DNA of 55,720 nucleotides, from IMG/VR virus record IMGVR_UViG_3300009180_000049, positions 1 through 55,720 of that record. One strand, given 5' to 3'. The stretch is from a virus. Below, one piece after another: positions 4,158 to 34,375 of this stretch (positions within the stretch are counted from its first letter, which is position 1; every line of letters begins with the position of its first letter). The notes under the pieces are model-generated. The model worked only from the letters and a program-made list of their open reading frames with translations. It searched no databases and had not been told where the DNA came from. The translations under genes were made by a program, and so were the position numbers.

Positions 4158-6170
4158 TTATTTTTTTGAGATTGTTAATTTTTCGTCTTTATATTTGAGA
4201 TTTATTAATTTACCCTCAACAATATTACCTTTTAAAATTTCTTCACTTAAAAAATCCTCACAAAGATTTTGAATAATTCTTTTTACTGGTCTAGCTCCAT
4301 ATTCTTCTTGCGAATTTAATTCAAATACTCTATTGGTGACTGTTTTATCAAAATTAACTTTATATCCTTTATCTTTTAATCTATTCGACAATCTATTAAT
4401 TTCAAGGTCAATAATTTTTTTCAATGTTTCTTCGTTCAGTGCATTAAATAAGATTATGTCATCAATACGATTTAAAAACTCAGGATTAAAATGTTGTTTC
4501 AACGCTTTTTGTATCATTGTTTTTCTAACTTCATATTTTTGAACTTCGCTTGATGATGTACTAAATCCAACACCACCACCAAATTCAGAAACACGTTTCG
4601 CCCCAATGTTAGATGTCATAATAACCAAACAATTTGTAAAATTAACTTTTCTACCAAATGAATCAGTTAAATGACCTTCATCTAAAATTTGTAATAGTAT
4701 GTTGAACACGTCTTTATGTGCTTTCTCAATTTCATCAAATAAAATGACAGAGAAGGGGTTATTTTTAACTTTCTCGGTTAACTGACCTCCTTCATCATAC
4801 CCAACAAAACCTGGGGGAGAACCAATTAATTTTGATACGTTGTGTCTATCCATATATTCACTCATATCAACACGAATGATTTTATCTTCATCACCAAACA
4901 AGTATTGTGCTAATGTTTTAGCAAGATAAGTTTTACCTACACCAGTTGAACCTAAGAATATGAATGAACCAATAGGTTTATTCGCGTCTTTAATACCTAC
5001 TCTATTTCTTCTGATTGACCTTGATATTGTAGAAATCGCTTCAGGTTGACCAATAACTTTTTCAGATAACAAATCCTCGAGTTGTAATAACTTTTGAGTT
5101 TCTTTTGCATCAAGTTTACTAATTGGAACCCCTGTCATTTGAGAAATGATTTCATAAACATTATCAATAGTAATTGGTATCTTATTGTCTTTTTGTTTTT
5201 CAGACCATTTATATTTCTCATCTTCAAGTTTAGTAACTACTTTCTTTTCTTCGTCTCTCAATTTTGCCGCTTGTTCGTAATTCTGACTTTTAACAACTTG
5301 TATTTTTTTCTCTTTGATTTCATCAATTTGAAATTTTAATTTTTCAATTGATTCAGGAATTCTTGTTGATATTCTTTTTTCAGAACCCAATTCATCTAAT
5401 ACGTCAATTGCCTTATCGGGAAATTGTCTTTCGGTTATGTATCTTCCTGCTAACCTTACAATTACTTCAATTACACCATCCTCATACGTTACTTTATGAA
5501 AATCTTGATATGATGTTGTTAGATTTTTTAAAATTTCAATTGTCTCTAACTCTGTTGGTTCCTTTAGGATTATTTTTTGAAATCTTCTAACGAGCGCACT
5601 GTCTTTTTCAATGTGTTTTTTAAATTCATCAAAAGTTGTTGCACCAATACATTGTATTTCACCTCTTGCTAATGCTGGTTTAAGAATATTTGCGGCATCC
5701 ATAGAACCACTCGCATTTCCTGCACCAACCATGGTATGAAGTTCATCAATAAAAACAATTACGTTCGGTGCTTCAACCAACTCATTTAAAATTGCCTTAA
5801 TTCTTTCTTCAAATTGACCACGATATTTTGTTCCAGCAACAAGTGATGTTAAATCCAAAGACATAATTCTTTTATCTAAAAGATTTGTTGGGCAATCACC
5901 TTTGTGAATCATTAACGCAAGTTTCTCAACTAATGCAGATTTACCGACACCAGCGTCACCAACAATAACTGCGTTGTTTTTCTTTTTACGAGATAGAATT
6001 TGTGCAATTCTTTTTACTTCAACGTCCCTACCAACAATAGGGTCAATCTTACCTTCCTCGGCCATCTTAATAAGATCACGAGAGAAGTTATCTAAAATTG
6101 GGGTGTTAGAACCTTTTCTAACTTTCTTTGGGTTTGTGGTTGGACCATCTTCAAAAAAATCTACTGACAT
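4158..6170 (-). CDS. clpC: ClpC-like AAA+ unfoldase without the N-terminal domain
   Basis: A Hsp100 ATPase with two AAA+ modules. From the ATG at 6170 (670 aa), D1 has Walker A GDAGVGKS at about 71-78, Walker B VFIDELH near 139-145 and arginine-finger region ALVRRF. A UVR-like linker (QAAKLRDEE) is near 300. D2 has Walker A GSTGVGKT at 407-414, GSPPGFVGY and Walker B ILFDEIE at 477-483. A VGF tripeptide at 534-536, about 55 residues past Walker B2, sits where ClpA/ClpC carry the ClpP-docking loop. The Clp-N repeat domain is missing: D1 begins about 45 residues from the start. It probably feeds host ClpP. A longer frame starts at 6206, but the 6170 start gives the better N-terminus and sits beyond the promoter. 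Confidence 0.9.
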   Translation of the reverse strand: MSVDFFEDGPTTNPKKVRKGSNTPILDNFSRDLIKMAEEGKIDPIVGRDVEVKRIAQILSRKKKNNAVIVGDAGVGKSALVEKLALMIHKGDCPTNLLDKRIMSLDLTSLVAGTKYRGQFEERIKAILNELVEAPNVIVFIDELHTMVGAGNASGSMDAANILKPALARGEIQCIGATTFDEFKKHIEKDSALVRRFQKIILKEPTELETIEILKNLTTSYQDFHKVTYEDGVIEVIVRLAGRYITERQFPDKAIDVLDELGSEKRISTRIPESIEKLKFQIDEIKEKKIQVVKSQNYEQAAKLRDEEKKVVTKLEDEKYKWSEKQKDNKIPITIDNVYEIISQMTGVPISKLDAKETQKLLQLEDLLSEKVIGQPEAISTISRSIRRNRVGIKDANKPIGSFIFLGSTGVGKTYLAKTLAQYLFGDEDKIIRVDMSEYMDRHNVSKLIGSPPGFVGYDEGGQLTEKVKNNPFSVILFDEIEKAHKDVFNILLQILDEGHLTDSFGRKVNFTNCLVIMTSNIGAKRVSEFGGGVGFSTSSSEVQKYEVRKTMIQKALKQHFNPEFLNRIDDIILFNALNEETLKKIIDLEINRLSNRLKDKGYKVNFDKTVTNRVFELNSQEEYGARPVKRIIQNLCEDFLSEEILKGNIVEGKLINLKYKDEKLTISKK

Positions 6171-12124: not shown

Positions 12125-13900
12125 ATGAATACCAGAGCAGAACAATTAATGGAGTATGCTAAGATTATTAAAGATACCCCATACGCCCTTAGAACATACC
12201 TTCAAACGTTTGACAATACACAGAAGAAGTATGTCCCGATGGATTTGTTTGAGGACCAAATTCAATTAATTAACGATTACGAAAATTACAACGAAAACAT
12301 TACAAGAAAGTATAGACAAGCTGGAGTTACAACTGTAACTGCAGCATGGTTATCAAAAAAATTACAATTAGCAAAACCTGATAATCCTGAAAGGGTTCTA
12401 CTTATCGCGAACAAACGTGATACCGCGGTGGAGATGGCTAATAAGGTTAGACATTTCATAGAACAATGGCCTGATTGGATTAATGTTGGGTTCTCACCTG
12501 ATAAAAACTCAGAAAGTAGATTTAGATTAAATAATGGTTGTGAGGTTAAGGCGGTTGCAACATCGGCGGATGCCCTTCGTGGTTATACACCTACCATACT
12601 TGTATTTGATGAGGCTGCATATATTGAAGCGGGTGATGATTTTTGGGCGGCATCTATGGCATCCCTATCAACGGGTGGTAAGATTATTCTTATCTCCACA
12701 CCAAATGGTTATGATGCTATCTATTACGGTGTTTACGACCAAGCATTACGTGGAATCAATGATTTCCATATAACTGATTTAAGATGGTTTAAAGACCCTC
12801 GTTACACCAAAGATTTACGTTGGGTTAAATGTCAAGACATCTGTCACTACATGTTGAATAGAGAACAATATAATGATGATGAAGTTGTTCTACATGATTT
12901 TGATATGAAAGAGTACAATAAACTAATTGAGGATGGTTATAAACCATTTTCATCTTGGTTTGAATCAATGTCTAAAAAATTCAAATACGATAGACGTAAA
13001 ATTGCTCAGGAGTTGGAATGTGATTTCTTAGGTTCAGGTGATGGGGTTATACCTACTGATATTCAAGAGAACATAGCAAAAAATATGATTCGTATTCCTA
13101 AAGAAAAATACATGCAAGGTACTTTCTGGCAATGGAAAGAACCAATTGAAGGTCATCGTTATATTATGGGTGTGGATGTTAGTAGAGGGGATAGTGAGGA
13201 CTTTTCATCAATTAATATTATTGATTTTGACGATAGAGAACAAGTTGTTGAATATATTGGTAAAATACCTCCAGATGATTTGGCGAATATAGCATACAAA
13301 TGGGGTATTTTATATGACGCTTTCATTGTAATTGATATCACAGGTGGTATGGGAGTTGCAACATCTAGAAAGTTACAAGAAATGAATTATAAAAGTTTAT
13401 TCATTGATGGTATTAACACACAGAACATTTGGGAATACAATAAAAAGGCTTTAGATAAAATACCAGGAATTAGTTTTAACAATAAAAGAACCCAAATCGT
13501 GGCGGCCTTTGAAGAACAACTTAGAAAAGGATTTTTAGTAAGGTCTAGTAGATTATTAAATGAACTCAATACGTTTGTTTATCTGAATGGAAGACCTGAC
13601 CATATGAAAGGAATGCACGATGACTCAATTATGAGTATGTCTATGGCATTATATGCTGGTGATATTTCATTCAATCAATTACAAAAAAATGATTCCAAAA
13701 ATAAAGCAATGATAGATTCATGGGTTATGTCTGAAAGAACTTACGAACCGGCCAAAACTCATTATTCTTATGGTTCATCTTTTGACCAAATAGGGGCTAT
13801 GGGTATGGACACTAACGACATTTATCACAAAGACAACCCAACAAACGTACCTAAAGACGCATATAAAGAACATATGTGGTTATTTGGGAAATCTAAATAA
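12125..13900 (+). CDS. terL: Terminase large subunit (gp17-like)
   Basis: The DNA packaging motor, 591 aa, close to T4 gp17. N-terminal ATPase: a Walker A-like RKYRQAGVTT at 61-70, Walker B ILVFDEAAY at 158-166 and coupling motif ISTPNG near 190-194. C-terminal RNase H-like nuclease: MGVDVSRGDSEDF at 348-360 (D351, D356), a second acidic site in VIDITGGMG and HDDSIMSMSMAL near 500. The order ATPase then nuclease, and portal directly downstream, are as in T4. It probably assembles on the portal vertex and cuts concatemeric DNA. No small terminase subunit is recognised nearby. Confidence 0.95.
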   Translation: MNTRAEQLMEYAKIIKDTPYALRTYLQTFDNTQKKYVPMDLFEDQIQLINDYENYNENITRKYRQAGVTTVTAAWLSKKLQLAKPDNPERVLLIANKRDTAVEMANKVRHFIEQWPDWINVGFSPDKNSESRFRLNNGCEVKAVATSADALRGYTPTILVFDEAAYIEAGDDFWAASMASLSTGGKIILISTPNGYDAIYYGVYDQALRGINDFHITDLRWFKDPRYTKDLRWVKCQDICHYMLNREQYNDDEVVLHDFDMKEYNKLIEDGYKPFSSWFESMSKKFKYDRRKIAQELECDFLGSGDGVIPTDIQENIAKNMIRIPKEKYMQGTFWQWKEPIEGHRYIMGVDVSRGDSEDFSSINIIDFDDREQVVEYIGKIPPDDLANIAYKWGILYDAFIVIDITGGMGVATSRKLQEMNYKSLFIDGINTQNIWEYNKKALDKIPGISFNNKRTQIVAAFEEQLRKGFLVRSSRLLNELNTFVYLNGRPDHMKGMHDDSIMSMSMALYAGDISFNQLQKNDSKNKAMIDSWVMSERTYEPAKTHYSYGSSFDQIGAMGMDTNDIYHKDNPTNVPKDAYKEHMWLFGKSK

Positions 13901-13954: not shown

Positions 13955-15778
13955 ATGGCAAATCAAAATCCTACCGTCTTTCAGAAACTAACAAGAATGT
14001 TTGGTTTTCCGGGTCAAATTAAAGCTGATCAGGCACCATCATTTAATTTCAACAAAGATGAATTATTAAAAACGGATAGTAAAGAAGATTATGAAAAGGC
14101 AATGTTACAGGCTCAACAGAGTCAATACATTGCTGACAAGTGGACAAAATTAGATCAATCTCTTTATAATCAATCGGTTTATTATGAACCGAATAGAATG
14201 GCAGCATACTACGACTATGAATCTATGGAGTTTACTCCTGAAGTTTCAGCAGCGTTAGATATATACGCTGAAGAATCAACTACAATGTCAGAGAAGGGTG
14301 AAATCCTTACAATATATTCTGAATCAGATAGAATTAAATCAATACTTCAAGATTTATTCCACACAAAAATGGATATCAATACTAACCTACAAATGTGGGC
14401 TCGTGGTATGTCTAAGTACGGTGATGATTTTGTTTATTTAAAGATTGACCCTGAAAAAGGTATTGTTGGAGTTCAACAATTACCAAATATTGAAATTGAA
14501 AGAATCGAAGGTGCTGGAACAAAAACCGCAGGACCTCATGATATTAAAGTTCCAACACGTGAATTAAGATTTCAATGGAAGAATAAAGATTTGGAATTTC
14601 AAGCATGGGAAGTCGCTCACTTTAGATTATTAGGTGATGATAGAAAACTTCCTTATGGAACTTCTATGTTAGATAAAATTAGAAGAATTTGGAAACAACT
14701 TTTACTTGCTGAAGATGCAATGTTAATCTATAGAACATCAAGAGCACCCGAAAGACGTGTGTTTAAAATATTTGTTGGTAATATGGACGATAAAGATATT
14801 GAATCTTACGTACAAAAAGTTGCAAATAAATTTAAACGTAGTCCAATAGCCGACCCACGTAATGGTCAGGTGGATATGAGATATAATCAAATGGCAGTTG
14901 ACCAAGATTATTTTGTTCCTGTTCGTGATGCATCTCAAACAATGCCAATTGAAACTTTACCTGGTGCACAAAACTTAGGTGAAATTGCTGACATTGAATA
15001 TATTCAAAAGAAAATGTTAGCAGCACTTCGTATTCCTAAAGCATTTTTAGGATTTGAAGAAGTAGTTGGTGACGGAAAGAATCTTGCATTAATGGATATC
15101 CGTTTTGCAAGAACAATTAATAAAATACAAAAATCATTAATACAAGAGTTAAATAAAGTTGCATTAATTCATTTATATCTTTTAGGTATGGAAGATGAAT
15201 TGAATAATTTTACTTTATCATTAACTAACCCATCAGCACAATCTGATTTGTTAAGGCTTGAGCAGTGGAAGGAAAAGGTAACACTTTACAAAGATGCGAC
15301 TTCCGACCAGTCACAAGTTGGTATCTTGCCGGTGTCGCATACATGGGCAAAGAAGAATATTTTAGGGTTTAGTGACAGTGAAGTCGTACTTGATTTACAA
15401 CAACAACGTTTAGAAAGAGCTATAGGTTTTGAATTAACTAATACACAGAATATTATTAAACGATCAGGTGTGTTCGATGAGGTTGATTCCAAATACGGAA
15501 TCCCTGAAGAAGAGAGAGAAAAACTTGAAGCTGCCGGTGCATTGGGTGGTGAAAATCCTGAAGGAGGTGGTATGGATATGGGTGGCGGTGGAGCACCTGA
15601 ACCACCAGCAGCAGGTGGAGGAGAACCACCGTTAAGTGAATCTAAATCAAAGAAATCTAAAATATTAGGTATGTTAGGTGAAGAGAAAGAAGATTTTAGC
15701 TCACTATTTGATATGAAACGCGCACAACAGAATATTTATGAGATAGAGAATAAATTGAAGGATATTTTAAATGACTAA
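13955..15778 (+). CDS. Portal protein (gp20-like)
   Basis: The 607-aa portal subunit of a T4-like phage. Seen: YYDYESMEFTPEVSAALDIYAEES near 85-108, typical of this family; KLPYGTSMLDKIRRIWKQLLLAEDAMLIYR around 230-260; a DYFVPVR segment and the LPGAQNLGEIADIEYIQKKMLAALRIPKAFL core. The C-terminus is a glycine/proline-rich tail followed by a short charged segment (about 525-607) that would face the capsid interior or be processed. It forms the dodecameric DNA channel at one vertex and nucleates prohead assembly. The next gene follows after 2 bases. Confidence 0.93.
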   Translation: MANQNPTVFQKLTRMFGFPGQIKADQAPSFNFNKDELLKTDSKEDYEKAMLQAQQSQYIADKWTKLDQSLYNQSVYYEPNRMAAYYDYESMEFTPEVSAALDIYAEESTTMSEKGEILTIYSESDRIKSILQDLFHTKMDINTNLQMWARGMSKYGDDFVYLKIDPEKGIVGVQQLPNIEIERIEGAGTKTAGPHDIKVPTRELRFQWKNKDLEFQAWEVAHFRLLGDDRKLPYGTSMLDKIRRIWKQLLLAEDAMLIYRTSRAPERRVFKIFVGNMDDKDIESYVQKVANKFKRSPIADPRNGQVDMRYNQMAVDQDYFVPVRDASQTMPIETLPGAQNLGEIADIEYIQKKMLAALRIPKAFLGFEEVVGDGKNLALMDIRFARTINKIQKSLIQELNKVALIHLYLLGMEDELNNFTLSLTNPSAQSDLLRLEQWKEKVTLYKDATSDQSQVGILPVSHTWAKKNILGFSDSEVVLDLQQQRLERAIGFELTNTQNIIKRSGVFDEVDSKYGIPEEEREKLEAAGALGGENPEGGGMDMGGGGAPEPPAAGGGEPPLSESKSKKSKILGMLGEEKEDFSSLFDMKRAQQNIYEIENKLKDILND

Positions 15779-15780
15779 AA

Positions 15781-16518
15781 ATGAACAAATTCGGAACAAT
15801 AAAAAGTAAATTATTAACTAAATTAACTGAGTCTTACGCTAATGAAAATAAAGCCGAGATAAAGGATATACTAACTACAATTAAAGAAAACAAAGATTTT
15901 AAAGAAATGTATTTGTTCTATGAAGAAATTGAAAACAAATATATTGAAGATAAAGAAACTGCAAAATTATATGTCGAGGGGGTTATTGGAATCTTAAAAC
16001 AACAAATGGAAGATTTAACAACATTTTGTACATCATTAAATAAAATGATTAATGTAGAGACAATTAATGAAAATGAAATTTATAGTTCTTTAGACGTATT
16101 AATAGAAAACGATAAATTATCTAATATTGAAAAGAAAGTAATTGCAAAGAAGAAATTAGTAGAACATTTAACAACTAAAAAGGAAATAAAGGAATCTAAA
16201 GATTCAACATTAATCCCAAATGAAAATTTATTAAATGCCGTTTTAACAAATAACTTTAATGTTCTTTATTCTAATACATTATCGGAACAACAAAAAGAAG
16301 AGTTAAAGAACATCCTTTCTTTATCTCATGAAGATGTATTAACTAAAACAACTGAATTAAAGGAATCTATTATCAATCAAGTATCTACACTTATAAGTGA
16401 ATCAAATGAAACTGATTTATCAACTAAATTAAAGAAAGTGAAAGATGAGGTTAACGAAATGTTCCCATCCAAATTAAATTATTACAGATTAACAGAATTA
16501 AAAAATGGACTTAACTAA
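15781..16518 (+). CDS. Helical hypothetical protein, possible prohead core component
   Basis: The 245 residues are almost all helix-forming and charged, with coiled-coil potential throughout and no globular motif. The N-terminus FGTIKSKLLTKLTES contains LTE, matching the (I/L)xE cleavage consensus. It lies between portal and prohead protease, the place where T4 encodes the small core proteins gp67 and gp68, so a prohead core role is plausible. Position is the main evidence; sequence similarity to gp67/68 is not evident. Its last bases form one arm of a bidirectional terminator and overlap the stop of the reverse bS21 gene by 8 bases. Confidence 0.6.
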   Translation: MNKFGTIKSKLLTKLTESYANENKAEIKDILTTIKENKDFKEMYLFYEEIENKYIEDKETAKLYVEGVIGILKQQMEDLTTFCTSLNKMINVETINENEIYSSLDVLIENDKLSNIEKKVIAKKKLVEHLTTKKEIKESKDSTLIPNENLLNAVLTNNFNVLYSNTLSEQQKEELKNILSLSHEDVLTKTTELKESIINQVSTLISESNETDLSTKLKKVKDEVNEMFPSKLNYYRLTELKNGLN

Positions 16519-16533
16519 GTCCATTTCTTTTTT
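16503..16533. terminator. Bidirectional intrinsic terminator between the convergent core-protein and bS21 genes
   Basis: Arms AAATGGACT (16503-16511) and AGTCCATTT (16518-16526) with a six-base loop. A T-rich run follows on the plus side, and a run of A before the left arm gives T on the minus side. Both stop codons lie in the hairpin. Confidence 0.75.
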
Positions 16534-16702
16534 GTTGTAGATATACCGCTTTCAATTTTTCAGTTCTTTTCTTAACAGAAGGTTTAACAAACTGTTGTCT
16601 CTCCCTTAATTTTTGAACTTGTTTTGTTTTCTGAACTTTTTGTTTATAAGTTCTTAACGCAGTCTCAATACTTTTCTCTTTTTGTAAATCAATTATAATC
16701 AT
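16511..16702 (-). CDS. rpsU: Ribosomal protein bS21 homologue
   Basis: The 63 residues match bS21 end to end: an ALRTYKQKVQKT segment (15-26), LRERQQFVKPSVKKR (32-46) and KAVYLQQKR (51-59). The FxKPSxxxR core is diagnostic, and the form is close to Bacteroidota bS21 rather than the longer proteobacterial one. Tyrosine 54 is present, the position described in Flavobacterium as contacting the anti-Shine-Dalgarno. bS21 is a small-subunit protein at the platform that exchanges easily, so a phage copy may enter host ribosomes. The gene is alone, reversed relative to its neighbours, and has its own host-type promoter. Confidence 0.88.
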   Translation of the reverse strand: MIIIDLQKEKSIETALRTYKQKVQKTKQVQKLRERQQFVKPSVKKRTEKLKAVYLQQKRNGLS

Positions 16703-16720
16703 ATATAAATAAATATATTA

Positions 16721-16753
16721 CAAATATATGAAAGTATTTTTGGAATAATCAAA
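16721..16753 (-). promoter_or_regulatory. Host-type promoter for the bS21 gene
   Basis: Minus strand: TTTG (16750-16753), 21 bases, TATATTTG (16721-16728), a full TAnnTTTG match, 18 bases from the ATG. A TATTTATT lies closer to the start, so late transcription cannot be excluded. Confidence 0.55.
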
Positions 16754-16807
16754 TATTTTATTTATTTTTTATAAAACACCATAAAATAAAAATAATATGA
16801 AATTATA

Positions 16808-17233
16808 ATGAAAATTGGTAAGTATATTCCATTGGGAACGTACAATGAAGTAAAAATCGGTTATGGTACCGTAGATTTTAAAAATCTGAAAACCATATAT
16901 CTTAAATTAAATTCGTGGTTACAACCCGAAAACGAAACGGACGACTTCAACCATTTGATTGGAAAATCAAGAAGAAAGATTAAAGAAATAATTTACAACT
17001 TAAAAAGTCCGTATTTTAAAGACCAATCTATTGTAGATTTAGATGTTAGAACTAAAGGGATTAAGTTAGAAAAGAGGTCCTTTATGAATTTGGAGGTAAC
17101 ATTATATGTTAACAATCAATTCGACATTAAATCAAAAGATGTTAAAATAATCATTAATGATTTATTCGAACATATCATAGATGAAGGGTTATCTGATAAA
17201 AAACTATTCAATTTTTACAAAACAAAGAAATAA
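16808..17233 (+). CDS. Hypothetical protein, 141 aa
   Basis: A basic, mixed alpha/beta protein with no motif that I know. Its position between the portal/core genes and the prohead protease suggests an assembly or connector role. The 105 bases upstream are extremely AT-rich and hold the bS21 promoter on the other strand plus a TATTTTTG on this strand without a clear -33 partner. The frame is long and uninterrupted and the codon use is like its neighbours. Confidence 0.65.
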   Translation: MKIGKYIPLGTYNEVKIGYGTVDFKNLKTIYLKLNSWLQPENETDDFNHLIGKSRRKIKEIIYNLKSPYFKDQSIVDLDVRTKGIKLEKRSFMNLEVTLYVNNQFDIKSKDVKIIINDLFEHIIDEGLSDKKLFNFYKTKK

Positions 17234-17247
17234 GTTAGATATTGATG

Positions 17248-17255
17248 TATTTATA
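17248..17255 (+). promoter_or_regulatory. Late promoter element TATTTATA for the prohead protease
   Basis: The octamer preceded by TG, 16 bases before the ATG at 17272. Confidence 0.6.
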
Positions 17256-17271
17256 GTAATAAAAACTATAA

Positions 17272-17955
17272 ATGAAGGTATTAGGACCAAAAGAAACCGG
17301 CAGAGGATTATTAATTGAGTATGATGCTGGTCACGTATCTCCAGAAGAGAATAAAAAAATAATTTCAGAAATGAAGAACATGGACTTTTCACAGGACATG
17401 ATTCTTTATGCTGTTTTACAAAAATACGACACTCCGAATAAGAACGGAAGGATTTATCCTGAGATGTTACTTAAGAGAGAAAACGAAAAATACCAAACAA
17501 TTATTAAGAAGGGTGGAGCTTTAAATGAATTAAATCACCCAACATCTTCACTTATCGATTTAGATAGAATTTCACATTCAATTCTAGAAACATGGTGGGA
17601 TGGTAAAATCCTTATGGGTAAGATAAAACTATTCACTTCGCCAGGTTGGAAGAAGATGGGTATTGTTTCTACCAAAGGAGACCAAGCGGCTATGTTATTA
17701 ATGAACGGAGCAACTTTGGGTATCTCTTCACGTGGAGTAGGTTCACTTAAACAAGTTAAAGGTGAGAACATTGTACAAGACGACTTTGAATTAGTTTGTT
17801 TTGATTTAGTTTCATCTCCATCTACACCTGGTGCATATGTTTTTAGTGACCCATCTGAAAGAGACCAATATCAAGAATCTACAATTGAAAAACCCGTAGT
17901 TGAGGACAGAATGAAAAAACTAATGGGTAGATTAGATACATTTCTATCTAAATAA
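17272..17955 (+). CDS. Prohead core protease (gp21-like, peptidase family S80)
   Basis: The 227-aa serine protease matures the T4-like prohead. Seen: QKYDTPNKNGRIYPEMLL at 50-67, ALNELNHPTSS with candidate catalytic histidine 89, and TLGISSRGVGSL with candidate serine 152 or 153, followed by FELVCFDLVSSPSTPGAY, a strongly conserved family block. It is expected to cut head proteins after (I/L)xE; the capsid protein here has INE followed by AA at residues 58-62, fitting such a site. It lies directly before the scaffold and major capsid genes, as in T4. Confidence 0.93.
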   Translation: MKVLGPKETGRGLLIEYDAGHVSPEENKKIISEMKNMDFSQDMILYAVLQKYDTPNKNGRIYPEMLLKRENEKYQTIIKKGGALNELNHPTSSLIDLDRISHSILETWWDGKILMGKIKLFTSPGWKKMGIVSTKGDQAAMLLMNGATLGISSRGVGSLKQVKGENIVQDDFELVCFDLVSSPSTPGAYVFSDPSERDQYQESTIEKPVVEDRMKKLMGRLDTFLSK

Positions 17956-19301: not shown

Positions 19302-21041
19302 ATGGGAGCATTATTAGAATCAGGTATGGTTGGTAACATCGGATTAAAACATTTACGTGTTATCAAGGAAGATACCATTAAAAAATGGGACGAATTAGGT
19401 TTCTTAGAAAACTTAGAAGGTCACCAAAAAGATAATATCGCGCAATTGTATGAAAACCAAGCGTCATATTTGATTAACGAAGCGGCAGTAGCAGATTCTT
19501 CAGGTTCTTTTGAAACTGTAGTTTTCCCTATCATCCGTCGTGTATTCTCTAAATTATTAGCGAATGACATCGTATCAGTACAAGCAATGAACTTACCAAT
19601 TGGTAAATTGTTCTTCTTCGTACCTAAAATCCAAGAAAGAGATAATAGTAATAATCACTATTCTCCTTATGGATATCCAAATACAGGTGCAACAAGTCAA
19701 GGTTATGACACAGGTGCTAAGAATCTTTACGATCGTTTCTACGAAGGTAGTGACGCAGTAGGTGAAGGTCTTTTTGATTATTCAAAAGGTTCATTCACTG
19801 ATGTTTCTTTAACTGGTACATCTATTGTAACTTTTGCAAATGGTGTTGAAAGTAACGCAGTAACTATCGCTACAGGTACCGATGTTTCATCAGTTATCTT
19901 AAAGTTAACAGGTTTCTCTAGATTAGGTCAAGGTAAATTAGCTGGTCCAGACGGTAACGAAATGGATACAGAAGAGTTTTTAGCTTCATTAACAATCACT
20001 GCACCTCGTGCAAATGCGTTAAGTGGTAGAACTTTCTTACCTTTCAACGTTGTAACTCAAAAATATGGTAAAGGTATCGTATCTTACGGACAAAAATCTG
20101 CAGGTACAAACGGTAACTTATTCAATGATATTTGCGATGAAGCTGGTACAATCTACTTAAATGTTGATTTACAAACTTACAGTTCAACTGAAGGTTTTGC
20201 AGATACGGAAATTACAGTTACAACATTACAAGGTGATGACTTTACAGCGACTTATCGTCGTTATGCAACTTTAGAATTTGAAGATCAAATTGGTGAGGTT
20301 TCTTTTGATTTAGAATCAGTAACAGTTTCTGTAACTGAAAGAAAATTAAGAGCTAGCTGGTCTCCTGAATTGGCTCAAGACGTTAGTGCATTCCACAACA
20401 TTGATGCTGAAGCTGAATTAACAGCTTTATTATCAGAGCAAATTGCAGCTGAAGTTGACCGTGAAATCTTACGTGATTTACGTAAAGGTGCAGCATGGAA
20501 ATCTAAATGGGATTACAATGAGTGGAAATACGGTGGAACTGGTGGTGCAACTTTACAAGGTTACACACAAAAAGACTGGAACCAAACTTTAGTTACTAAA
20601 GTTAACCAAATTTCAGCTCAAATCCATAAAACAACCTTAAGAGGTGGTGCTAACTGGATTGTAGTTTCTTCTGAAGTTTCTGCAGTATTTGATGATTTGG
20701 AATATTTCCACGTATCAAACGCAGCTCCTGAGCAAGATTCTTACAACATGGGTATTGAGAAAATCGGTTCTTTGGCAGGTCGCTACCAAGTATACCGTGA
20801 TCCTTACTTCCCAGCTAACAAAATCTTGATTGGTCATAAAGGAAAATCTTTATTGGATGCAGGTTATGTATACGCACCATATGTGCCATTACAATTGACT
20901 CCAACAATGTACAATCCTTTCACAATGACTCCTATCAAAGGTATCATGACTCGTTACGCAAAGAAAATGGTGAACAACCGTTACTTTGGTATCATCGATG
21001 TACAAGGTATTGCAACATTTGATATGAATACATTAAGATAA
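19302..21041 (+). CDS. Major capsid protein (gp23-like)
   Basis: The 579-aa HK97-fold shell protein of T4-like type. Seen: VVFPIIRRVFSKLLANDIVSVQAMNLPIGKLFFF near 70-105, the conserved segment just after the T4 cleavage point; SWSPELAQDVSAFHNIDAEAELTALLSEQIAAEVDREIL around 355-395; GANWIVVSSEVSAVFDDL and YRDPYFPANKILIGHKG further on, all gp23-like. INE then AA at 58-62 is a likely prohead-protease cut site that would remove about 60 residues. Codons are more C-ending than in the neighbours, consistent with very high expression. A strong terminator follows. Confidence 0.95.
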   Translation: MGALLESGMVGNIGLKHLRVIKEDTIKKWDELGFLENLEGHQKDNIAQLYENQASYLINEAAVADSSGSFETVVFPIIRRVFSKLLANDIVSVQAMNLPIGKLFFFVPKIQERDNSNNHYSPYGYPNTGATSQGYDTGAKNLYDRFYEGSDAVGEGLFDYSKGSFTDVSLTGTSIVTFANGVESNAVTIATGTDVSSVILKLTGFSRLGQGKLAGPDGNEMDTEEFLASLTITAPRANALSGRTFLPFNVVTQKYGKGIVSYGQKSAGTNGNLFNDICDEAGTIYLNVDLQTYSSTEGFADTEITVTTLQGDDFTATYRRYATLEFEDQIGEVSFDLESVTVSVTERKLRASWSPELAQDVSAFHNIDAEAELTALLSEQIAAEVDREILRDLRKGAAWKSKWDYNEWKYGGTGGATLQGYTQKDWNQTLVTKVNQISAQIHKTTLRGGANWIVVSSEVSAVFDDLEYFHVSNAAPEQDSYNMGIEKIGSLAGRYQVYRDPYFPANKILIGHKGKSLLDAGYVYAPYVPLQLTPTMYNPFTMTPIKGIMTRYAKKMVNNRYFGIIDVQGIATFDMNTLR

Positions 21042-25316: not shown

Positions 25317-26828
25317 TTAATTGGTTCTAATCGATTTGTTTAACATGTCATTTTCTAAAGTCGTGATTTTTTTCATTAAATTAACGAAACTCGGGTCAGT
25401 TTGGACTAATGGACCCATCAAATTGTGTTGGTGACTAATCATTAATTTAATTATTGATTGAAGTACGTCAATTAAAACTTCCCCCCTAACTAACGCATAT
25501 GTATTTGGTTCAATGTCTTTAATATAATTCTCGTGGGTAGGTTCATACTTATCAATTTTGGTAAAATCAATTGGTATGTTATATTCGTTGGTATCTGTTG
25601 AAATTAGGTATATTTTGTCAGATTTAACGGTTGCAAATGTTTGTTCAACAGTATCATCACTTTCTTCCAAAACATTCTTTTTTGTTACACTAGTTACTGT
25701 TGGAGCATCAAAACTTGATTTTGAGAAAACGATACCTTCTTGGATTCTTTTACCAAAAGTAACGTTTGTTAATAGTGTTTTTCTATTTGTTAATTCAAAT
25801 GGATTCGCTAAATCTCTCTCTTTACATTCTTTTGTACATCTAAAATAAAATGGATGCATTTCAGTTTCTCCGTAAATTGGGTTGAAGTAGTTTAATCCAT
25901 CGTGATGTAATTTATAGAGGTTTAATCGTATTTTAACACACGCTTCCGTTAAATCTGCAGCCGTAAATGTGAGTGTTGCGCCTGTCGAAGTATTTACTCT
26001 ATTATTAATGTTATATTCGTTGATTAACGTACAACCAGTGGTTAAAATTGTATCTTCTAATTTTGAGTTTGAACTTAAAAATTGTGGTCCAGCATTTCTA
26101 GTGTCATAAACATAAAATTCAATATTAACTCCACCACCATAAAAATTAGTAACGTTATATTCAACAAAATATTTTATTTGTTGGATTTGTAAGGTATTAG
26201 TGATAACATCTTGGTTGTTATATTCTAATTTTTTTGGATATTTTTTTAAATGTATTGTTGATGAATTGTCCGACATTGTCGGGTGCGTTATCAATACCTT
26301 TTTTTGTGCACTTGTTGCAAATGATTTACTTAACAATTTACCACCTCTAATATTCACACCATTTTCTGTAAAAATAACATCAGAACCGTATTTCCCATAA
26401 ACACCATAATCAGTATTTTTTGCTAACGAACCATTAGATTTTGGTTTAATATAATTTCCGTCTTTATCTTTAACATCTTCACCATGCACCGCTCCTTTAT
26501 GGTAAGTTGTATTTTCAAGTTGTGCGGAATGTGTTTGTCCGTTAAAATCGTGAACAGTTGTAAAGGGACCTGCAATATATTCAAGATTAACAGTATCTTT
26601 TTCAGTATCGTAATTTATAATTTTAACTGACTGTCCTTTTTCAGGTATAAAATTCAGATTTGTTGGTAAAAATGGAATTGCAGTAAATAAATCCTTATCA
26701 TCCCAAGCATTATAATCAAAAGCTTTTTCTAATTCACCTGTATATGAACTATACCTAACTGCACGGATACGACCAATACCTTTTGGGTCATTATTATCAA
26801 TACAAATTGCAATATCTATTATTTTCAT
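25317..26828 (-). CDS. Baseplate hub-like protein with an N-terminal OB fold (gp5-like)
   Basis: The first 80 or so residues (ICIDNNDPKGIGRIRAVRY, AIPFLP, PEKGQSVKIINY) follow the gp5/VgrG OB-fold pattern, in which a DPxGxGRIRV strand is followed by a P..G..V strand. The remaining 420 residues are beta-rich with no lysozyme motif, so the cell-wall-cutting domain of T4 gp5 is not seen here. It ends in a long helix (LMKKITTLENDMLNKS) that may trimerise. It overlaps the small coiled-coil gene upstream by ATGA. The hub role follows from the OB fold and the neighbours; other baseplate parts are possible. Confidence 0.65.
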   Translation of the reverse strand: MKIIDIAICIDNNDPKGIGRIRAVRYSSYTGELEKAFDYNAWDDKDLFTAIPFLPTNLNFIPEKGQSVKIINYDTEKDTVNLEYIAGPFTTVHDFNGQTHSAQLENTTYHKGAVHGEDVKDKDGNYIKPKSNGSLAKNTDYGVYGKYGSDVIFTENGVNIRGGKLLSKSFATSAQKKVLITHPTMSDNSSTIHLKKYPKKLEYNNQDVITNTLQIQQIKYFVEYNVTNFYGGGVNIEFYVYDTRNAGPQFLSSNSKLEDTILTTGCTLINEYNINNRVNTSTGATLTFTAADLTEACVKIRLNLYKLHHDGLNYFNPIYGETEMHPFYFRCTKECKERDLANPFELTNRKTLLTNVTFGKRIQEGIVFSKSSFDAPTVTSVTKKNVLEESDDTVEQTFATVKSDKIYLISTDTNEYNIPIDFTKIDKYEPTHENYIKDIEPNTYALVRGEVLIDVLQSIIKLMISHQHNLMGPLVQTDPSFVNLMKKITTLENDMLNKSIRTN

Positions 26829-27025
26829 TTCTTAAGCCTTTTTTCAATTTCTTTATTAACTTTATTATATGAATTTTCAACACTCTCCATATGTCTTGTT
26901 AAATCAATTATTAATTGTTTTGTCTTTTCAAATTCTTCGTATAATTCATTAACAACGATAAATAAATCTTTATTTGATTTATTTTCGACGTCATACACCA
27001 CTTCTATAATTTTTTCTTTTTCCAT
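26825..27025 (-). CDS. Small coiled-coil protein, 66 aa
   Basis: The whole protein is one charged helix with heptad-like spacing (LFIVVNELYEEFEKTKQLIIDLTRHMESV). Coupled to the hub gene downstream by a 4-base overlap and 3 bases from the gene upstream. Probably a tail or hub assembly factor or chaperone. No family recognised. Confidence 0.6.
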   Translation of the reverse strand: MEKEKIIEVVYDVENKSNKDLFIVVNELYEEFEKTKQLIIDLTRHMESVENSYNKVNKEIEKRLKK

Positions 27026-29465: not shown

Positions 29466-30164
29466 TTATTCTAAAAATCCAACCAAAATACCGTCATACA
29501 TCTTTTTAAAACGTTTTAGGGATACTCTAATCTCTTTTGTGGATAATGAGGTCATTTCTCGTAATGAGAGTAAGATAAGGTTCTTATTGAATTTATTACC
29601 ATCACCAACTTGGAATATTTTATCAAAATTGCTAAAAATCTCTAACAATGCATATCCCAATTTTTGTTCGTTTTCTGTTAGGTTTTCCTTCTCAATAAAG
29701 TTTTCTAAAGAAATGGTTAATTTAATTATAACACTTTGGTAATCAATAATGTGTTCGTCAATAACATAAGACAAATCTTTCCTATCTTCAATATCGGATG
29801 ATATGTCATCGTAAGATACTTGTCTATTCTGTTCTTTAGTGTCTTTCTGTATTGCCCCCATAAGGTAGTTTTTACAGATAGTACCAAAGTATGAATACGC
29901 TTTAGTGTTCTTTGTGTGGTCGAATTTATTAATTTTAGTGATTAAAAAAGACATAGTATCGGTGTGAATTTCTTCAAATTCCATATCCTTCCTATATAAT
30001 TTATATCTTCTAATAATACTCTCAACCATAATAACTAATGGTTCTCTTAAAAACTCATTGAATATTTTGTTTTTTTCATCTTCATCGGTACTCTCTAGAT
30101 ACTTAACGACGGCTTTTTCTTGATCCTCACCAAAGTATATTTTTTGGGTTCGTGGTCTCGGCAT
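29466..30164 (-). CDS. Late-transcription sigma factor (gp55-like)
   Basis: The 232-aa protein has a sigma-70 region 2-like core: VIMVESIIRRYKLYRKDMEFEEIHTDTMSFLITKINKFD, then TKAYSYFGTICKNYLMGAIQKD, the part that contacts core polymerase and the -10 element. A C-terminal helical segment (LSTKEIRVSLKRFKKMY) resembles a recognition helix-turn-helix, weakly. It is short, as in T4 gp55, which needs a sliding clamp and coactivator. It is the obvious candidate to read the TATTTATA elements of this window. It abuts the glycosyltransferase gene (TAA-ATG). Confidence 0.82.
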   Translation of the reverse strand: MPRPRTQKIYFGEDQEKAVVKYLESTDEDEKNKIFNEFLREPLVIMVESIIRRYKLYRKDMEFEEIHTDTMSFLITKINKFDHTKNTKAYSYFGTICKNYLMGAIQKDTKEQNRQVSYDDISSDIEDRKDLSYVIDEHIIDYQSVIIKLTISLENFIEKENLTENEQKLGYALLEIFSNFDKIFQVGDGNKFNKNLILLSLREMTSLSTKEIRVSLKRFKKMYDGILVGFLE

Positions 30165-32946: not shown

Positions 32947-33678
32947 TTAATCGTATCTATTCAATATTTCACCAATGATTGGGTTTCGTACAATGTCTTG
33001 CATTCCAAATTCAAAAATCCCAATTCCCTTAACATCTTGTAATCTCATTTTAGCATCAAATAAACCAGATTTAGTTTTATCTCTAAATTTATCTGATTGT
33101 TCCAAATCACCTGATAAGAAAAATTTGGAATTAAATCCAATACGAGTTAATAATAACTTAATCTGTGATGGGGTGGCATTTTGTGCTTCCTCAAAAACAA
33201 GGATTGTATTATCTACGTTCCAACCTCTCATGTAAGCGAGTGCGGCAACTTCAATATAACCTTGGTCTTTTAGTTCTTCTCTCGCTTCCTTACCAATAAT
33301 CTTATTTAAAAGGTAATATGACGGATAAATGTATGGGTCTAATTTCTCCTCTAAACCCCCTGGAAGTGACCCTAATTTCTCTTCAGCTTCAACTGCGGGC
33401 CTAACTATGATAATCTTCTCATACTTGTTAGAATCGTCGTATAATAGGTCCACAGCACGTTTCATTGCTATGTAGGACTTACCTACACCTGCGGGACCGA
33501 AACATAATGTTATTTGATTTTCTCCAAGAATGTTCCAATAAATTTCTTGGTTTTTCGTTAGGAACTTTTCTTTAGGACGTTTGATGATTTGTCTTATCCT
33601 ATCCTTATGTGATATCTTCTTCTCTTCTACTAATACGGGTGGGTGGTTGGTTGTTTTGGTTCTAGTTTTATATGCCAA
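32947..33678 (-). CDS. phoH: PhoH-like P-loop ATPase
   Basis: The 243-aa protein has a full PhoH domain: Walker A GPAGVGKS at 61-68, VRPAVEAEEKLGSLPGGLEEKLDPY at 92-116 (family signature), and Walker B TILVFEEAQN at 158-167 followed by LLTRIGFNSKFFLSGDLEQSD. PhoH proteins are ATPases linked to phosphate stress and RNA metabolism, and are common in marine phages. The start is a TTG codon at 33678; there is no ATG in frame ahead of the domain. A late promoter element lies 32 bases upstream and a terminator follows the stop. Confidence 0.9.
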   Translation of the reverse strand: MAYKTRTKTTNHPPVLVEEKKISHKDRIRQIIKRPKEKFLTKNQEIYWNILGENQITLCFGPAGVGKSYIAMKRAVDLLYDDSNKYEKIIIVRPAVEAEEKLGSLPGGLEEKLDPYIYPSYYLLNKIIGKEAREELKDQGYIEVAALAYMRGWNVDNTILVFEEAQNATPSQIKLLLTRIGFNSKFFLSGDLEQSDKFRDKTKSGLFDAKMRLQDVKGIGIFEFGMQDIVRNPIIGEILNRYD

Positions 33679-33721: not shown

Positions 33722-34375
33722 TCAAACACCGGTAGATCCAAATCCTCCCTCGCCTCTTTCTGTATTAGATAATTCAGGAACCTCCGTCATATATATGGTA
33801 GGATAAGGTAATATGATGATTTGAGCTCCTCTATCTCCAACTTTGTATTTAATTGAGTCCAAACCATTTGTTTTCTTAAAGGTGGCTTGTAATTCTCCTC
33901 TATATCCACTATCAATTACACCAACACAATTTGATAATATTAAATCTTGGTTTCTAACTGAAGAACGAGGGAATACTAACCCAACATAACCTTTAGGAAT
34001 TTCTATTGCAATACCAAATCCATATGATACGCTAAATGATGTATTTTCAATTTCTTTTGTGATTGTTAAATCCATACCAGCATCCCCAACTTTTGAATAT
34101 GATGGAATTACAGCTTCAGGAACTAATTTTTTAACTTTAACTAAAGTACCACCTCCCGTCATTGTTGGTTGAGTGTTAATTATGTTTTGTCTGTTAACAG
34201 GGGTATTAATATTTTTTGAAACTTCGTCATTAGTAATTTCACCAGATAATTTATTTAGAACTTCTTCTAACTCACTTAAATAACTCATATCCTGACTTTC
34301 ATCAGTATCGTCATTAAGTGTTTTTTCAATCTCTTCTAATTTTTTTAGGTACTGTTCTATTTCTTCTTTTTCCAT
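33722..34375 (-). CDS. dut: dUTPase (dut-like) with an N-terminal helical extension
   Basis: The trimeric dUTPase fold starts near residue 75 and shows all five motifs: GDAGMDL (97-103), PRSSVRNQ (136-143), NCVGVIDSGYRGEL (149-162, with D155), GDRGAQIIILP (180-190), and RGEGGFGSTG (207-216). It hydrolyses dUTP to keep uracil out of phage DNA. The first 70 or so residues are an acidic, coiled-coil-like helix with a Q/N-rich linker not normal for the family (about 150 aa). That extension may bind another protein or set the oligomer. It follows the 70-aa gene by one base. Confidence 0.93.
   Translation of the reverse strand: MEKEEIEQYLKKLEEIEKTLNDDTDESQDMSYLSELEEVLNKLSGEITNDEVSKNINTPVNRQNIINTQPTMTGGGTLVKVKKLVPEAVIPSYSKVGDAGMDLTITKEIENTSFSVSYGFGIAIEIPKGYVGLVFPRSSVRNQDLILSNCVGVIDSGYRGELQATFKKTNGLDSIKYKVGDRGAQIIILPYPTIYMTEVPELSNTERGEGGFGSTGV

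Follow-up and report, generated by a model that had tools for sequence, protein, structure and literature searches.

Among the ribosomal proteins carried by phages bS21 is reportedly by far the commonest (PMC9976891), which raises the question of why phages carry it so often. The rpsU-like gene described here lies in a 55,720-base virus record (the window, meaning the whole stretch analysed) and raises this question in a concrete form, namely what a phage copy of bS21 would do to the ribosomes of its host and to the host's own rpsU. The gene (16511-16702, minus strand) starts with ATG, encodes 63 amino acids with a tyrosine at position 54, and was identified from its open reading frame, profile matches and a two-helix model; no further S21 match occurs in the record (n = 1). 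The product scored above the curated cut-offs of both PF01165 (44.8 bits, cut-off 27) and TIGR00030 (38.9 bits, cut-off 28.95), and reached 30.5 bits with phrog_21469, the S21 family of PHROGs. Its top PDB sequence match was 7jil (44.4 bits), the Flavobacterium johnsoniae ribosome according to Chen et al. (PMC9723584), and the alignment with the bS21 of F. johnsoniae gave 44% identity across the aligned length, which bears out the earlier note's claim of a 63-residue bS21 homologue. The AlphaFold2 model (pLDDT 88.1, pTM 0.52) contained helices at residues 12-36 and 41-60, and Foldseek returned three PDB matches with it, all of them ribosomal small-subunit entries, at weak E values of 0.97-1.4.

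The same note had assigned the protein to the Bacteroidota type with Tyr54 retained. Residue 54 is indeed tyrosine, in the window and in 81/81 rows of the near-phage set, and codon 54 showed zero amino-acid changes among 53 distinct near-relative genes. The pN/pS ratio of rpsU over these 53 genes was 0.196 (uncorrected proportions), and the phage rpsU is under purifying selection. We read the frame as a Bacteroidota-type bS21 of a T4-type phage, which acts as a working protein in the explanation preferred below; that explanation as a whole has, in our estimate, an even chance of being right.

The gene is reversed within the head gene cluster, as had been claimed: it lies between the portal gene (13955-15778, plus strand) and the prohead protease gene (17272-17955, plus strand), and the genes for TerL (12125-13900) and a Gp23-type capsid protein (19302-21041), both recognised by profile matches, are also on the plus strand. 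Its immediate neighbours are a convergent gene of 245 amino acids (15781-16518, plus strand), which overlaps rpsU by 8 bases (16511-16518), and a divergent gene of 141 amino acids (16808-17233, plus strand), which adjoins rpsU in relatives too; both are without an assigned function. The 141-aa protein was modelled with a pLDDT of 89.9, and the idea of a known fold was dropped because a comparison with the PDB gave nothing at or below E 0.001; its single viral structural match, A0A8S5L9A5 (TM 0.80), is itself without known function.

This arrangement recurs in relatives. A scan of IMG/VR yielded 170 stretches encoding a bS21 relative, of which 80 were kept, and three further scans gave 11, 21 and 80 loci, with contigs partly shared among the scans. 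In the near set (81 sequences including the window) 80 sequences carry the 245-aa gene and 79 the 141-aa gene, in every case on the strand opposite to bS21, and in the wider phage set (n = 114) they were found in 83 and 84, respectively. A search that started from the 141-aa gene found bS21 at 72/80 loci, one of the other eight ending too early for a judgement, and seven loci carry both neighbours and no rpsU (L431, L432, L441, L442, L446, L447 and L448). On the tree of the 141-aa protein, whose rows include loci retrieved via bS21 itself, these seven loci correspond to three gains or losses of rpsU, at least two of them forced by well-supported branches, in a tree whose bootstrap had not yet stabilised.

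A relative with 92% bS21 identity (L024) lies in a 335,630-base record, and the window is a 55.7-kb fragment. The capsid protein of the window, which had 2502 matching records, shares 40% identity over 58% with that of the cultured Flavobacterium phages vB_FspM_immuto, and a search of the phage collection gave no bS21 match for these phages. A Bacteroidota host is thus suggested indirectly by the type of bS21 and by the likeness of the capsid to that of Flavobacterium phages. None of seven phage records searched for it, which may be fragments, contained a phage-borne bS18. Elsewhere on the minus strand the window encodes a ClpB-like AAA ATPase (4158-6170), a T4-type RNA ligase (1288-2361), a PhoH-like protein (32947-33465) and a dUTPase (33722-34375). 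McNutt et al. (PMC9976891) speculated on a phage protease acting against host bS21; a connection of any of these four genes with that idea would be conjecture.

Much of this is known from similar phages. In 2022 Chen et al. (PMC9723584) described 47 genomes of Bacteroidetes phages (293-331 kb in their clades a-e) that encode bS21 in reverse orientation inside the same head cluster, found residue 54 to be aromatic in all phage bS21 and Tyr in 54/61, reported that related phages transcribe bS21 late together with the capsid genes, and put forward a model in which phage bS21 replaces host bS21. The window shares with those phages the reversed gene in the TerL/portal/protease/capsid cluster, the aromatic residue 54 and the Bacteroidetes-like bS21, and on their published description it differs by nothing in kind. 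The kind of gene, where it lies, Tyr54 and the model of replacement have all been published before. What appears to be new here, relative to the papers at hand, is that the phage rpsU lies outside the host Shine-Dalgarno (SD) loop, and that the bS21 tail is written over a predicted shared terminator. Neither the missing host SD nor the terminator-coded tail occurs in the available text of Chen et al. (PMC9723584), whose main text does not use the words 'promoter', 'leader' or 'autoregulat', and the leader contrast and the overprinted tail were likewise not found in the available open-licence PMC literature.

In F. johnsoniae the host rpsU has an extended SD and is translated preferentially by bS21-free ribosomes, and rpsU mRNA is better served by ribosomes that lack bS21 or carry a Y54A or truncated form of it (McNutt et al. 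2023, PMC9976891). To compare leaders on the same footing, the pairing energy of 22 bases (-25 to -4 of each rpsU) was calculated against the 16S tail ACCUCCUUUCU, which lies within GGCTGGAACACCTCCTTTCT, found in 5/10 chosen host assemblies; an earlier 16S-tail pattern matched 1/10 and was replaced. The 25-base leader of the window's rpsU (16703-16727, minus strand) contains no SD and gave 0.9 kcal/mol, and the extended SD of the Bacteroidia type was absent from it as from the near phages, in which 0/35 distinct leaders reached -9 kcal/mol or lower (3/82 in phages overall). In contrast, all 32 distinct leaders of the Flavobacterium scan (query F. johnsoniae bS21) did so, with a range of -16.0 to -17.2 kcal/mol, as did 24/36 distinct leaders from the remaining Bacteroidota hosts whose bS21 is aromatic at residue 54 and 46/68 of Bacteroidota hosts without such a residue. 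Base-shuffled leaders reached -9 in 7.5-10.9% of cases for the Flavobacterium scan (two runs) and in 0.6% for the phages. Host SDs are well above chance, and phage leaders follow their own base composition. When leaders associated with an aromatic residue 54 were clustered at 70% identity to lessen the effect of shared ancestry, the difference persisted (hosts 18/29, phages 2/34; Fisher p 1.6e-6).

The contrast has exceptions on both sides. Three phage leaders are SD-like, two with aromatic residue 54 (L273, -12.1 kcal/mol; L309, -9.7) and one without (L281, -16.6); L273 comes from a 735-kb phage record (LR756501), and its leader holds GGAGG. Conversely, 12/36 Bacteroidota hosts with Y/H54 are also without a strong SD, and the hosts compared may not include the phage's own. 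The extended SD of rpsU is common in Flavobacteriales and is not universal. These comparisons excluded the window itself (L001) and 4/386 sequences that had no usable start (L222, L223, L225, L227). The phylum genomes comprised 148 listed, which gave 110 loci from 108 genomes (30 taken automatically and 80 picked by hand); the 114 rows of other phages overlap some near-set contigs and were merged only where leaders were identical. L288 was retained though it resembles a host fragment, and so were a few rows of the Flavobacterium scan with other titles (e.g., L134, L136, L143); a structural alignment left out L272, L273 and L074.

The absence of an SD is not peculiar to rpsU. With genes called simply by ATG, the window has 61, of which five have leaders that pair at -6 kcal/mol or below and one at -9 or below; shuffled window leaders reached these values in 5.4% and 1.2% of cases, so that the proposal that most genes of this phage lack SD sequences agrees with what we measured. 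The sole called gene at or below -9 is at 26825-27025 on the minus strand (-10.0 kcal/mol, containing GGAGG). In seven phage records AGGAGGT-N3-12-ATG occurred 25 times and the reversed pattern 18 times, counted for the most part irrespective of gene starts, which gives no firm sign of strong SDs elsewhere in these phages. Since window genes as a rule have leaders without an SD, the lack of an SD at rpsU need not have been selected and may be a default state; the regulatory consequence would be identical either way. The products of the F. johnsoniae and phage genes share Tyr54 and 44% identity over the aligned length, and differ in their C-terminal tails; of the two genes, the host's is autoregulated and preceded by an extended SD (PMC9976891), the phage's by no SD. 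Without the extended SD, the phage rpsU is therefore outside the self-regulation loop of host bS21.

Upstream of the start codon, where the earlier note had seen a host-type promoter, three elements stand on the minus strand: TATTTAT at -13 from the ATG (16709-16715), a candidate late promoter box that is enriched before other window genes; TATATTTG at -26 (16721-16728), a putative promoter that resembles the Bacteroidota -7 element; and CCAAAAAT at -41 (16736-16743), kept in syntenic relatives. The consensus of the Bacteroidota -7 element is TAnnTTTG, and this motif alone is no promoter evidence because its count in the window is at background (100 occurrences, shuffle mean 94.46). The host-type promoter was thus rejected as a window-wide signal but retained as a positionally conserved element, with TATATTTG near -25 in 33/62 distinct syntenic leaders and in 0.55 in shuffles. 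Likewise, CCAAAA was present in 41/62 of these leaders (2.9 in shuffles) and TA[TCA]TTAT at about -12 in 42/62 (1.6 in shuffles), and 19 non-syntenic phage leaders contained CCAAAA once and the other two patterns never; all these patterns were picked after inspection of near leaders. A phage promoter class of the form CCAAAAA-N5-9-TATATTTG was discarded (eight matches in seven records, seven before rpsU and one elsewhere), as was CCAAAAATA as the -7 element of a divergent promoter on the opposite strand, present in just 18/62 distinct syntenic leaders. A sigma-70 scan of 15700-17400 found 12 sites where 12.4 were expected.

TATTTAT precedes 18/60 window genes (e.g., TerL at 12125 and portal at 13955), compared with 3.6 in shuffles, and the commonest 7-mer across 100 shuffles of the window leaders reached up to 16. 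It often lies 11-13 bases ahead of the ATG, and its reverse complement, TATAAATA, stands before two genes only. TATTTAT is a possible phage late promoter with very short leaders. The T4 late box lies at -13 to -6 from the transcription start; if TATTTAT acts in a similar way, which we regard as a lead only, late rpsU mRNA would start at or near the ATG. At 29466-30164 on the minus strand the window weakly matches phrog_234, a family of late sigma transcription factors (E 6e-4, 20.9 bits).

The explanation that we prefer, with as much to be said for it as against it, is that phage bS21 keeps ribosomes in the state with a hidden anti-SD and at the same time lowers host rpsU, the ribosome pool drifting to phage bS21. 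Its SD-less leader would allow bS21-replete, SD-blind ribosomes to translate the phage rpsU, probably late in infection by analogy with related phages. Phage bS21 would enter host 30S subunits that lack bS21, either new or having lost it; Tyr54 would hold the 3' tail of the 16S rRNA hidden, and the hidden tail would preserve the initiation mode needed by SD-less phage mRNAs. Filling by phage bS21 would remove the bS21-free ribosomes on which host rpsU is efficiently translated, and translation of host rpsU would therefore drop; host bS21 synthesis would fall, the pool would shift toward phage bS21, and the phage would benefit. From published biochemistry and the measured leaders we infer that phage bS21, by keeping ribosomes replete, probably silences host rpsU.

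For ribosome entry the nearest precedent is the bS21 of pelagiphage HTVC008M, which Mizuno et al. (2019; PMC6375957) showed to be incorporated into ribosomes of E. coli. Both proteins are encoded by myoviruses, and most viral bS21 come from aquatic samples; however, the host of HTVC008M belongs to another phylum, and for the bS21 of the window entry is a prediction. Several observations count against the preferred explanation: the phage leaders match shuffles, a strong SD is missing from those 12 hosts with Y/H54, three phage leaders are SD-like, and the sole phage bS21 tried in ribosomes, that of HTVC008M, left E. coli ribosomes with about 5% of their activity in vitro (PMC6375957).

Doubtful, though the best placed of the alternatives, is the proposal of specialised ribosomes in the model of Chen et al. 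(PMC9723584), according to which a changed N-terminal helix and loop would give ribosomes a preference for phage mRNAs. When the commonest residues of 80 host proteins (with aromatic residue 54) and 90 phage proteins, all distinct, were compared, the greatest difference lay in the N-terminal half (R21/Q, F23/V, G27/K, T28/Q), and Chen et al. (PMC9723584) find the same region of phage bS21 divergent, which is compatible with the preferred explanation as well. Such divergence would also be expected from drift if the mode of binding is conserved, and no mRNA feature that could be selected was found, the window leaders being shuffle-like for SD. The kept Tyr54 favours a hidden anti-SD state over an altered choice of mRNAs, with which it is also compatible.

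We consider it somewhat less probable still, and on the whole unlikely, that the gene provides plain supply, topping up bS21 at high demand or after host expression has stopped, with the missing SD passive and host rpsU not materially affected. The loose, exchangeable binding of bS21 (review PMC10931766) and the rule of SD-less leaders in the window both fit such a role. However, a top-up with Tyr54-competent bS21 would still repress host rpsU, and supply alone would do little to explain why the gene is kept, because host rpsU would itself be derepressed on bS21-free ribosomes (PMC9976891). That phage bS21 inactivates host ribosomes and so shuts off host translation, as the 5% activity with the pelagiphage protein might suggest, is very improbable, since that figure comes from a mismatched host, as its authors state (PMC6375957), and bS21 is expressed together with capsid genes (PMC9723584), unlike a general poison.

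The C-terminal end of the phage bS21 calls for a separate explanation. Its last codons lie in a 24-base palindrome (16503-16526) with 11-base arms, a 2-base centre and a T-run beyond each arm, a predicted bidirectional intrinsic terminator that encodes NGLN-stop of the 245-aa protein on the plus strand and NGLS-stop of bS21 on the minus strand. The terminator scan of 15700-17400 gave two sites, both being this palindrome read on each strand (0.2 in shuffles). The stops of the two genes overlap by 8 bases in 74/80 near loci and by 4 bases in six. Across 39 distinct 38-base phage 3' ends with the overlap, the median hairpin energy was -13.9 sense and -13.3 antisense, compared with -2.0 after shuffling, and in 32/39 bS21 ended in NGL with no more than one residue after it. 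Such an end was found in 2/31 cases where the 245-aa gene was apart or not found, one of which (L330) has the palindrome on a contig that stops before the partner gene, and in 0/175 distinct host ends. Of the seven overlapping ends without NGL, only those of L314 and L311 form a strong hairpin; the remaining five do not. At the loci that lack rpsU a hairpin of this kind spans the stop of the 245-aa gene in 5/7, being absent from L431 and L432.

Constraint on the nucleotides is visible in the alignment of 14 distinct 32-mers from loci with the 8-base overlap, in which 12/16 pairs are always Watson-Crick and two pairs covary (A-T in 4 and T-A in 10; T-A in 13 and C-G in 1). Moreover, of the five-codon windows along rpsU (n = 59) the five with the lowest synonymous change, 0.07-0.22 against a median of 0.57, start at codons 55-59, and Leu62 is CTT in 52/53 genes, a codon used for 74/511 leucines in 12 window genes. 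The hairpin, the covariation and the low synonymous change therefore offer nucleotide constraint from the shared predicted terminator as an alternative account of the conserved tail, with which a role in the protein is also compatible; Chen et al. (PMC9723584) suggested that the conservation of the tail serves ribosome entry. The combined reading, in which a safety loop of the host is turned against it and the pool is converted, with the bS21 tail a by-product of the shared terminator and not a ribosome-binding feature, falls somewhat short of an even chance.

Conserved C-termini of overlapping convergent genes can mirror nucleotide constraint, and this gives another reading of one published inference. 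McNutt et al. (PMC9976891) proposed the replenishment loop as a host counter-defence against phages; if the preferred explanation is true, host bS21 would be silenced without a protease and that counter-defence would be defeated. To the question of why phages carry bS21 so often the leader contrast adds a concrete test in F. johnsoniae, for which rpsU'-gfp reporters and bS21 mutants exist: phage bS21 would be expected to lower rpsU'-gfp and to spare SD-less reporters.
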